Source: Pandoraea fibrosis (GTDB lineage Bacteria > Pseudomonadota > Gammaproteobacteria > Burkholderiales > Burkholderiaceae). From it: a stretch of DNA of 64,000 nucleotides. The position numbers and the translations under genes were made by a program. This document shows positions 8,346 through 58,788 of the stretch, piece by piece (the stretch's first letter is position 1; each line of letters begins with the position of its first letter). The stretch is taken from assembly GCF_000807775.2 (NCBI RefSeq), contig NZ_CP047385.1, positions 2,728,001 to 2,792,000 on the forward strand, in the 5' to 3' direction. A model generated the notes under the pieces. The model did no database searches, was not told the DNA's origin, and saw only the letters and a list, made by a program, of their open reading frames with translations.

Positions 8346-8410
8346 GCAAAAAAAACGGCCAGCAATTTGCTGGCCGTGAAATCCACCAGGAGGAGGTGGA
8401 GGAGACAGGT
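8346..8410 (-). ncRNA. Candidate small RNA with anti-Shine-Dalgarno loop
   Basis: Minus-strand unit of about 60 nt. A TATAGT -10-like box lies at 8419-8414. Next comes a C/U-rich stretch, then a hairpin with stem CCACC/GGTGG (8399-8395 and 8387-8383) and loop TCCTCCT, complementary to AGGAGGA. It ends in an intrinsic terminator: 9-bp stem ACGGCCAGC/GCTGGCCGT (8377-8369 and 8363-8355) followed by Ts at 8354-8348. No reading frame uses it. The -35 (TTAACC, 19 nt away) is weak. Expression is inferred, not shown. Confidence 0.5.
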
Positions 8411-57027: not shown

Positions 57028-57046
57028 GCGCACGTTAATGGTGCGC
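57028..57046. promoter_or_regulatory. NtrC-type enhancer site
   Basis: GCGCAC-N7-GTGCGC, a perfect palindrome fitting the NtrC pattern GCAC-N7-GTGC. Lies about 165 nt before the sigma-54 promoter at 57209. Confidence 0.6.
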
Positions 57047-57208
57047 CGCCGCATCGCGATGCGGCATTGTGCCCGTTGTCATGCCACCGCATGGGGGCCG
57101 CGCCACCGGTGTGTGCTCTGGCACTAATCGCCTTCACGCGCTCCTCCCTTTCGCAAACCGCCGCAGTATGGACGTCTGCGGCGATGCCGCCTTCGTTGAA
57201 CATCCCCT

Positions 57209-57224
57209 TGGCACACCACTTGCT
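57209..57224 (+). promoter_or_regulatory. Sigma-54 promoter of the narK-like gene
   Basis: TGGCACACCACTTGCT: TGGCAC and TTGCT with GG and GC 10 nt apart. Predicted start near 57235, three bases before the first leader hairpin. Confidence 0.8.
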
Positions 57225-57237
57225 AGTCATTGCGCAA

Positions 57238-57375
57238 GGCCAACGGTGGCCGAGTGAAGACAAGCGAATTTTCTGCACCGCATGCATACCCCCGCGCGAG
57301 CGGGGACTTCGGGGCAACGGCGTCCCGAAGCCATAGGCCTGTTCACAGGCGTAAGGCTTCGGGACGCTTTTTTTT
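57238..57375 (+). promoter_or_regulatory. ANTAR (NasT/NasR-type) antitermination leader
   Basis: Hairpin P1: GGCC-AACGGT-GGCC (57238-57251). Hairpin P2: CTTCGGGGC-AACGGC-GTCCCGAAG (57307-57330). Both hexaloops have A at position 1 and G at 4, the ANTAR-protein target rule. The terminator stem (57321-57332 with 57355-57366, 12 bp) followed by eight T reuses the 3' arm of P2, so P2 and terminator exclude each other. A CCCCGC-GCGA-GCGGGG hairpin lies between. An ANTAR regulator bound to P1/P2 would let transcription read into the transporter gene. Confidence 0.75.
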
Positions 57376-57399
57376 CGGCATTCGAACACGAGGGTATCC

Positions 57400-58788
57400 A
57401 TGAGCACGCTCACGCAATCGTTGAAAAGTGGCAACTGGCGCGCGCTGGTTGCGTGTTTTCTCTACTTCGACACCGGTTTCACCGTCTGGGTGATGCTCGG
57501 ACCTCTGGCCCCGTTCATCGGCAAAGACATTGCGATGACACCCGCACAGACCGGCTTTCTCGTGGCCGTGCCGGTGTTGGGGGCGGCGATTCTGCGCGTC
57601 ACGCTGGGCAATCTGTATCAGGCCTTCGACGGTCGCAAGATTGCGTTGATGGGGCTCACGCTCTCGGCCATCCCGTCGGTGGTGCTGTTGCTGATGCCGG
57701 GAACACCGTCGTACACGCTGCTGCTGGTGCTGGGCGTGTTCCTCGGTATCGGCGGGGCAAGTTTCGCGGTGGCGTTGCCGATGGCGGGCAGCAACTACCC
57801 GCCGAAGGTACAGGGTCTGGTGCTCGGTCTTGCGGCGGCAGGCAATGTCGGCGCGGTGCTCGACGGCTTCATGTTCCCCGGACTCGCCGAGCACTACGGG
57901 TGGGCGCACGCGGCGGGGGCTGCATTGCCGCTGCTCGCGCTCGCTGCGCTGGCGCTGGTGTTCTGGGCCAAGGATCAGGGCGTGAAATCGGGCAGCGCAA
58001 CGCGCGCATTCACGAGCTTCTTCATCACCGTGTTCGGCCTCATTGCCCTCGTGCTGTGCGTGCATGCAGGCGCATTCGGGGAAGGCAAGGCCGGCGTGCT
58101 GTTGCTGCCGGTGCTGGGGGCGTTGCTCGCGATTGCCGTCCTGCCGCGCCATTATCGCGGTGTGCTGGCCGAGCGCGATACGTGGGTGATCATGCTGGTC
58201 TACAGCATCACGTTCGGCGGTTTCGTCGGCATGTCCTCGTATGTCACGACATTGTTGATTTCTCTATACGGCATGGCGCGTATCGAAGCGGGCCTCTTCA
58301 TGTCGTTGCTCGCGTTCCTCGGCGCCCTGGTGCGTCCGATCGGAGGTCTGGTCGCCGACAAGATTTCCGGTGTGCGTGCCCTGGTGCTGCTGCTCGCTGC
58401 AATCTCGGCCATCGATCTGATCTTCGCCGCATGGATGCCACCACAAGGTGCCGGTATCGCACTGCTCGTGCTGGTCTACGTGTGCTTCGGCCTTGGCAAT
58501 GGCGCAACGTTCCAACTCGTGCCGCAACGCTGGCAGGGCAAGACAGGCCTGATGTCCGGGATCATCGGCGCTGCGGGTGGCATCGGCGGGTTCTATCTGC
58601 CAGTGATCATGGGCATCGCGAAGGAATCGACGGGCAGCTATCAGATGGGCTTTGCCACGTTCGGTGCGCTGGCGGCGCTGGCGTTCGTGCTGGTTCTCGC
58701 GCTGCGCACGCACTGGATGTCGTGGGCATTGCCGAAGGAGGTGGCGGGTGGTGCGGTCCTGGCAGGCGGCGTGGCGCACGTCGAGTAA
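57400..58788 (+). CDS. NarK-type nitrate/nitrite MFS transporter
   Basis: 462 residues, 12 helices. NNP-family features: FDTGFTVWVMLGPLAPFIG in helix 1, GGASFAVALPMAGSNYPPKVQGLVLGLAAAGNVGAV (nitrate signature around helix 5) and the second Gly-rich stretch GLMSGIIGAAGGIGGFYLPV. Imports nitrate or exchanges nitrate and nitrite. GAGGG 6 nt before the ATG. The sigma-54/NtrC/ANTAR leader points to nitrogen assimilation rather than respiration. No nas or nar enzymes follow. Confidence 0.9.
   Translation: MSTLTQSLKSGNWRALVACFLYFDTGFTVWVMLGPLAPFIGKDIAMTPAQTGFLVAVPVLGAAILRVTLGNLYQAFDGRKIALMGLTLSAIPSVVLLLMPGTPSYTLLLVLGVFLGIGGASFAVALPMAGSNYPPKVQGLVLGLAAAGNVGAVLDGFMFPGLAEHYGWAHAAGAALPLLALAALALVFWAKDQGVKSGSATRAFTSFFITVFGLIALVLCVHAGAFGEGKAGVLLLPVLGALLAIAVLPRHYRGVLAERDTWVIMLVYSITFGGFVGMSSYVTTLLISLYGMARIEAGLFMSLLAFLGALVRPIGGLVADKISGVRALVLLLAAISAIDLIFAAWMPPQGAGIALLVLVYVCFGLGNGATFQLVPQRWQGKTGLMSGIIGAAGGIGGFYLPVIMGIAKESTGSYQMGFATFGALAALAFVLVLALRTHWMSWALPKEVAGGAVLAGGVAHVE

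Follow-up and report, generated by a model that had tools for sequence, protein, structure and literature searches.

In the definition of Ramesh et al. an ANTAR-target leader comprises two hairpins, here called P1 and P2, and a linker of variable length. The eut leaders of Enterococcus have linkers of 5-12 nt, and with 14 nt a drastic loss of EutV action in vivo is reported (PMC3369931). In vitro, antitermination by EutV was abolished when the linker was extended by 20 nt (PMC8934654). According to the same structure paper EutV has similar affinities for the two hairpins when each is offered alone, and its authors propose loading on P1 and passage to P2 within a spatial limit (PMC8934654). A catalogue of actinobacterial leaders treats linkers of 2-25 nt as an established feature (PMC8164766).

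Several described leaders precede nitrate genes. In Klebsiella oxytoca the protein acting at the nasF leader is reported to be NasR, a one-component NIT-ANTAR sensor. In Azotobacter, Pseudomonas and Paracoccus NasT is encoded beside NasS. In Paracoccus nitrate is reported to separate NasS and NasT, and NasT binds the nasA leader RNA (PMC3795266); the upstream hairpin HI was essential and a mutation of HII of little effect (PMC5424462). Bradyrhizobium narK, equipped with predicted NasT hairpins, is reported to be higher without NasT (PMC6759348). For Burkholderia cenocepacia it is reported that an ntrC mutant is unable to use nitrate, that transcripts of the nitrate transporter, nirB and nasT fall in this mutant, and that the nitrate reductase cluster is listed among shared sigma-54 targets (PMC5491218).

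We describe the leader of a narK gene from Pandoraea fibrosis. The window, i.e., the whole stretch of 64,000 nt that was analysed, comprises positions 2728001-2792000 of contig C1, the single contig of a 5.59 Mb genome. We propose, with a probability of roughly 80%, that the narK leader is a two-input switch in which an NtrC/sigma-54 promoter is combined with antitermination by NasT, loaded on P1 and then acting on P2. The logic of NtrC/sigma-54 and NasT is known; new is the long-linker form which breaks the EutV spacing. With the NasT/NasS leaders the locus shares NasT beside NasS and hairpins plus a terminator before nitrate genes, and with the nitrate systems of Paracoccus and B. cenocepacia, as reported, the NtrC input. 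It differs in that narK stands alone behind a leader of its own, about 640 kb from the nirB-nasTS locus, and in a linker of 55-60 nt with an extra hairpin. This distance is far and counts against the switch. Two hairpins, a nitrate signal and Ntr control, as described for nasF of K. oxytoca, would be common to both leaders, with NasS-NasT in place of the one-component sensor. The EutV leaders as reported share the A1/G4 hexaloops, i.e., A at loop position 1 and G at position 4, and a P2 which overlaps the terminator, unlike their linkers: 5-12 nt there, 39-90 nt between the stem cores in the leader family of the window. The C-G closing pair matches the reported SELEX motif of NasR.

Table 1. 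Parts of the narK leader, with positions in the window
Feature	Position	Strand	Remarks
NtrC-like palindrome GCAC-N7-GTGC	57030..57044		179 nt upstream of -24/-12
Sigma-54 promoter TGGCACACCACTTGCT (-24/-12; GG-N10-GC)	57209..57224	+	
P1, ANTAR-type hairpin GGCC-AACGGT-GGCC	57238..57251	+	loop A1, G4, C-G closing pair
P1-P2 linker, 55 nt	57252..57306	+	
Extra linker GC hairpin CCCCG-CGCGAG-CGGGG	57290..57305	+	without ANTAR loop
P2 antiterminator CTTCGGGGC-AACGGC-GTCCCGAAG	57307..57330	+	9 bp, -14.5 kcal/mol
Intrinsic terminator	57319..57368, T8 57368..57375	+	-41.0 kcal/mol; begins at P2 loop position 4
narK/nasA-type MFS nitrate/nitrite transporter, 462 aa	57400..58788	+	

The palindrome, the promoter, the two hexaloop hairpins and the terminator named in the earlier note were all found at their places, and the terminator does share an arm with the second hairpin, as had been claimed. 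The transcript presumably starts at about 57235, judging by the usual spacing of sigma-54 promoters. The segment 57224-57385 folds with z = -5.63 (0/200 shuffles as low), and the predicted minimum free energy structure of the leader RNA contains the terminator. Because the latter is far more stable than P2 (-41.0 versus -14.5 kcal/mol), the default state would be 'off'. Terminator and P2 are mutually exclusive since the terminator starts within the P2 loop. In the P1 loop AACGGT, A1 can pair with U6, and the predicted minimum free energy structure closes this A-U pair; this counts against the switch. Measured by the definition of Ramesh et al. the leader has two A1/G4 hexaloop hairpins, a P2 which excludes an intrinsic terminator, and an ANTAR protein encoded in the genome. 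In this broad sense its sequence marks it as a genuine member of the class, and the earlier reading of the leader appears essentially right. The narK protein scores 255.6 bits with TIGR00886, under the cut-off of 311.7, and 106.2 bits with MFS_1. A TetR-like gene lies downstream of narK on the opposite strand.

When the genome was searched for nasS and nasT, a check suggested in the earlier note, exactly one ANTAR protein emerged, a NasT-like receiver-ANTAR protein (66.7-69.4 bits). Its gene adjoins a NasS-like gene (NMT1_2, 288.6 bits) in the row nirB, nirD-like (Rieske), nasA-like, cobA, nasT, nasS, i.e., adjacent NasS-like and NasT-like genes together with nitrate genes, the mark of a NasS-NasT system. 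By alignment NasT keeps 7 of the 11 RNA-contact residues of EutV; it has D, G and K in place of N173, R175 and R177, and R in place of K147. These apparent changes of contacts count against the switch. The genome also has an NtrC gene (TIGR01818, 665.3 bits, neighbours in frame). GG-N10-GC, the upstream GCAC-N7-GTGC and an encoded NtrC are all present.

A second leader lies upstream of nirB: TGGCATGCTTGTTGCA, a P1 with AAAGGC, a P2 with AACGGC and a terminator, preceded by an exact GCAC-N7-GTGC at -107. A covariance model, R2, was made from 53 leaders of other genera with zero Pandoraea rows. In a scan of the whole genome its top match was the narK leader of the window (45.3 bits, E 1.5e-10), followed by the leader before nirB (25.8 bits, E 1.6e-4). 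A third leader was sought among the next four R2 matches (18.7 bits for the third match, none higher); promoter, T-run and the nitrate genes sought were missing from them, and they look like chance matches.

The narK protein of the window is 93-98% identical to 17 of 18 Pandoraea proteins and 90% identical to the eighteenth (best segments). Among 80 narK homologues 59 have the leader, including all 18 from Pandoraea: in 31 it lies within 700 nt, and in 28 a P2-like hairpin with a T-run lies 0.86-2.27 kb upstream (26/28 within 1 kb). At L049, the one distant-leader locus of named hosts that was read closely, a PilJ-domain gene is situated between leader and narK, and several further genomes have the same arrangement. 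Elsewhere in the genome of the window none of 10 matches to a PilJ-like gene was full-length, the best being 34% identical over the MCP-like part. From narK loci, second leaders, the window and its own nirB leader 74 leaders are complete with promoter, P1, P2 and T-run; L068, a P2 lacking a promoter, and three narK leaders with a mismatch in the P1 stem (L034, L043, L045) were left out. All 16 second leaders precede a nirB-like frame. The host genera, all of the Burkholderiaceae, are Pandoraea, Paraburkholderia, Burkholderia, Caballeronia and Trinickia.

The palindrome GCAC-N7-GTGC is exact, with varying N7, in 17 of the 18 Pandoraea-type leaders directly before narK (the window, L008-L023 and L031); L020 has one mismatch. 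Upstream of 48 of the 74 leaders the NtrC-like site is exact, which holds for 5.5% of background segments; in the remaining 26 it has a single mismatch, a level that 37% of the background reaches as well.

Lack of covariation in homologous leaders had been named as a possible refutation. Covariation is present in P1: 5 of 6 pairs have two-sided changes, with 98.7% of cells paired, in 52 distinct non-Pandoraea leaders, rows preselected for 4 bp or more in the P1 stem. The whole structure has 71 two-sided cells versus 20.5 (sd 5.9) in shuffles, 0/500 being as high. Two-sided changes are absent from P2, where G-U/A-U exchange is the only change besides outer positions left unpaired; this would be expected of a hairpin that shares its 3' arm with the terminator. 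A smaller alignment, A1 (28/33 leaders), gave a weak signal of 5 two-sided cells versus 2.7, and 50/500 shuffles reach 5. The invariant columns of this alignment, and of alignment A2 which left out L028 (90-nt gap) and every Pandoraea row, fall solely in P1 or P2; P1 among the 74 leaders had been sought by loop A1 and G4 and the C-G closing pair, so conservation in both alignments and covariation are partly by choice. The terminator arms (14 distinct pairs) have two-sided changes at positions 9-12 with pairing kept; of the 14, one departs from pairing at position 8 and two at position 13. The nirB leader is the only source of the changes at 9 and of the C-G changes at 10 and 11. In 33/33 leaders examined the terminator starts at P2 loop position 3 or 4.

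For an unbiased test of P1, all hexaloop hairpins 22-52 nt after the first base of the promoter were compared and the longest-stemmed one was taken, whatever its loop or closing pair. At 70 of 77 P2 sites with promoter this hairpin carries A1 and G4, and these 70 always have A2 and the C-G closing pair; A1/G4 occurs in 5.4% of 15,405 background hexaloop hairpins from the same loci. The test failed at seven sites (three without a 4-bp stem, four with another hairpin of longer or equal stem), which counts against the switch. These data bear on the idea that narK is controlled by NtrC and sigma-54 only, behind a leaky terminator and decaying hexaloops. That the gene can do without the leader is indicated by 17/80 narK homologues with a sigma-54-like element 71-124 nt upstream and no leader found; we nevertheless give this idea scarcely any weight in view of conserved, covarying P1, P2 and terminator arms and the co-occurrence of leaders with ANTAR proteins.

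The 55-nt gap between the 4-bp stem of P1 and the 9-bp stem of P2, with a GC hairpin inside, was found as previously noted; it lies outside both the EutV-type spacing of 5-12 nt and the actinobacterial limit of 2-25 nt. The remark that such a gap is unusual stands in comparison with EutV and falls within the leader's own family, where a long gap is the rule: between the 4-bp cores it measures 39-90 nt (median 51; 74 leaders), 60 nt in the window. The intolerance of EutV for long linkers counts against the switch. An extra hairpin of -8 kcal/mol or lower occurs in 36 of 53 distinct narK linkers (5.8 expected) and in 2 of 14 distinct nirB-type linkers (0.6 expected), the shuffles keeping composition only and not dinucleotides. 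As a necessary part this hairpin is unsupported, being absent from the Pandoraea nosoerga leader L016 and uncommon in nirB-type linkers. A helix closing the linker ends, which would bring P1 beside P2, was rejected as well: end-to-end pairing of narK-type linkers is weaker than in shuffles, again matched in composition only (-4.49 versus -6.19 kcal/mol; 100/100 shuffles as low).

Could the linker hairpin be a degenerate near P1 that NasT still uses as the actual counterpart of P2? Of 53 distinct narK linkers 52 bear a hairpin, and in 32 of these it is 2-8 nt away from the P2 core, about where three-hairpin leaders place their near ANTAR hairpin. Against this, A1/G4 hexaloop hairpins of any kind occur in 4 of 67 distinct linkers versus 3.4 expected, L016 lacks the hairpin, and nirB-type linkers mostly have no stable one; we consider the proposal very improbable. 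Less far-fetched, and in our view still unlikely, is an action of NasT on P2 alone, with P1 merely capping the 5' end, the hairpins not cooperating and linker length consequently free. Linkers of 39-90 nt with little conservation and no end-to-end pairing agree with it, as do the location of P1 at the transcript start and the reported binding of single hairpins by EutV with similar affinity. A mere cap, however, needs no loop identity, and P1 has A1/G4 at 70/77 sites in the unbiased test together with stem covariation; moreover, the hairpin reported as essential in Paracoccus is the upstream one, HI.

A single match in the window passes the Rfam gathering thresholds, and it lies outside the leader. 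The leader itself reaches 22.2 of 70 bits with P11 (RF00625) and 21.3 of 43.2 bits with narK RNA (RF03032), below both gathering scores; other matches at the leader, e.g., to microRNAs, are far under their thresholds. The P11 leaders of Pseudomonas resemble the window in sigma-54 promoter, P2 (GGAC-AAAGGC-GUCC) and terminator, and differ by having a near hairpin, whose A1/G4 loop is a different one (ACAGAG in L208). The narK RNA consensus shares the sigma-54 promoter and P1 with the window, unlike its linker, which is usually short. It consists of the promoter, a drawn hairpin with an AACGGC loop and the tail ACGACAAAGACGUCGC, and this tail reads as a second hexaloop hairpin, P2, left undrawn by Rfam. 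The family appears to be the short-linker form. At E <= 0.001 narK RNA matches 15 of 150 genomes from the order, one of them above the gathering score. An ANTAR protein is found in 73 of the 150, and every genome with a narK RNA match belongs to these 73 (P 9e-6). In 14 of the 15 a strict scan (described below) found P2 and terminator, and in the fifteenth (G014) both were read by eye. These results give Rfam narK RNA a likely function. The open-access literature, as far as its accessible part was searched, contained no report of narK RNA as an ANTAR target, which is weak evidence.

Some leaders work differently: Rli55 of Listeria and EutX of Enterococcus soak up ANTAR proteins. With this precedent, and with partial matches to narK RNA and to P11, which is filed as sRNA in Rfam, the terminated leader RNA of about 140 nt might work in trans, either as a small RNA or by sequestering NasT like a sponge. 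We hold this to be quite unlikely, since the next gene, where checked, is narK, nirB, nasA or a PilJ-like gene, and since P2 is excluded by the terminator. A sponge role and antitermination are not mutually exclusive.

The two-input switch, which we prefer, would operate as follows. Under nitrogen shortage phosphorylated NtrC at the palindrome would activate sigma-54 polymerase at the promoter. The transcript would begin almost at P1, and its default end would be the terminator. With nitrate or nitrite NasS would release NasT, the sole ANTAR protein of the genome, which would load on the emerging P1 and then keep P2 folded. Folded P2 would withhold its 3' arm from the terminator, and polymerase would read into narK. 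An AND logic of nitrogen shortage and nitrate is likely, and the nirB leader would put reduction under the same two signals as transport. As P1 is near the 5' end and the linker spans some 40-90 nt, we infer that NasT must bridge this distance or be handed over. The switch is supported by the R2 ranking, the single NasT beside NasS and the leader in 59/80 homologues; by unbiased P1 loops, P1 covariation, terminator arms and NtrC-like sites; and by the contacts kept in NasT, the co-occurrence of narK RNA with ANTAR proteins, the NasS-NasT work in Paracoccus with its essential HI, and the reported need for NtrC in B. cenocepacia. Two reports count against it: HII hardly mattered in Paracoccus, and narK of Bradyrhizobium was higher without NasT.

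A wider proposition, which we hold at even odds, is that ANTAR leaders are not bound to tight spacing. In NasT regulons of the host family and its relatives P1 would be anchored to the transcript start and the linker free (about 20-110 nt loop to loop), some leaders having three hairpins; the NasT clade of the host family, with AKR in place of the AKG motif, would do without a near hairpin and act over at least 40 nt; and P1 would be a loading site with hand-over. If this is true, the EutV spacing rule would be a special case. Between the first promoter base and the P1 loop 66 of the 74 leaders have 32-36 nt, and the other eight have 40-47 nt. In the genomes surveyed, the first promoter base and the first loop are 32-39 nt apart in 19 leaders of the host family, and 34-51 nt in 28 of 31 leaders of other families (the rest 63, 69 and 109). 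The P1-P2 loop-to-loop distance is 22-89 nt in the host family and 21-111 nt in the others. The narrow first spacing and the wide range of the second indicate a P1 fixed relative to the transcript start and a linker of free length.

The strict scan covered stretches around ANTAR genes and RNA matches and accepted A1-A2-N-G4 hairpins with C-G closing pair and overlapping terminator. It yielded 87 sites, 65 with a sigma-54-like element, classified by P1 distance as near (<=25 nt), middle (26-34) or far (>=35). In the host family 15 are far-only, 2 middle, 1 near and 1 near plus far, five of the 15 far-only sites deriving from loci fetched with a long-linker model, R1, and two from the own genome. 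ANTAR neighbourhoods alone, i.e., free of model choice, gave 8 far, 2 middle, 1 near and 1 both (n=12). Other families, with some loci drawn from Rfam matches, have 19 near sites, 6 near plus far, 4 far and 2 middle, and a P1 by these rules is missing at 15; 25 of their 31 P1-bearing leaders have a P1 within 25 nt. Altogether seven leaders possess three hairpins, near and far, and with a background of 0.0099 such hairpins per 60 nt these are not due to chance. A looser first scan had found 58 sites versus 4 on reversed sequence, none of the four with P1. R1 matched only 8 of 23 ANTAR-positive host-family genomes under strict filters, which counts against the switch; its low yield in the order search (4/150) is ascribed to the filters and not read as absence. 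In the open-access literature, searched in part, neither a long-linker or three-hairpin ANTAR leader nor an experiment on one came up, again weak evidence. The survey suggests that leaders of this kind would escape a catalogue whose linkers are limited to 2-25 nt. Linkers of 39-90 nt, short-linker relatives, three-hairpin leaders and the hairpin loss in L016 provide a natural series for the loading model.

The spacing correlates with NasT phylogeny. In a tree of 68 NasT-like proteins, made by quick search with SH-aLRT support only, 11 from the host family, including that of the genome under study, form one group (support 99). Nine of its genomes have a P1 that was found, in none of them within 25 nt; neighbouring branches have near, mixed or three-hairpin leaders. 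The P1-distance label changes 8 times on the tree versus 14.6 when shuffled (0/500 as low), and the label for no near P1 also appears in seven other rows outside this group. A longer segment between receiver and ANTAR domains was considered and rejected: it has 92 residues in 11/11 of the group and in 54/56 others. Lys149 of EutV is reported to contact loop G4 (PMC8934654). By alignment, and with numbering placed by us, it is directly followed by the G/R residue of the AKG motif. This residue is R in 11/11 of the long-linker group versus G in 51/56 others; R is also seen in 3 of these 56, one of which has a P1 distance of 36 nt, and G is retained in other long-linker rows. In these alignments AKR and the long linker appear as a correlation.

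The ANTAR core of the NasT proteins that constitute the long-linker clade of Burkholderiaceae, the protein of the window genome included, reads AKR instead of AKG in all 11 members, whereas AKR is found in only 3 of the 56 other proteins. The narK RNA of Rfam (RF03032; loci L088-L102) resembles a sigma-54 promoter followed by a tandem ANTAR leader. The second hairpin of this RNA is absent from the structure drawn by Rfam. All 15 genomes which it matches possess an ANTAR protein.

Three ANTAR-type hairpins precede a single terminator in the leaders L127, L159, L165, L124, L164 (two) and L227; L223 is built likewise, but lacks a promoter. A sigma-54-like element lies 71-124 nt ahead of 17 narK homologues for which the search revealed no ANTAR leader (L046, L057-L060, L062, L064-L066, L069, L076, L079-L083, L087).

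A small PilJ/MCP-domain gene is located downstream of the leader in L049, L169-L172 and L178. In L049, L169 and L172 it is positioned between leader and narK; in genome G178 it follows a third leader (L178). In L034, L037, L040, L043-L045, L048, L049, L074 and others, the second, nirB-type leader is preceded by two exact GCAC-N7-GTGC sites spaced 21 bp. Further, in the narK linkers a short CGAATT/CGATTT-like block recurs 3' of the first hairpin, P1 (leader alignments A1 and A2, the latter without Pandoraea).

Coordinates of individual features
Feature	Position	Strand	Remark
NasT of the Burkholderiaceae long-linker clade	L002:8400-9092		AKR shared with ten relatives
Small PilJ/MCP-domain gene	L049:2243-2977		
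Betaproteobacteria toxic small RNA (RF02278) match	window 8348-8407	minus	54.9 bits
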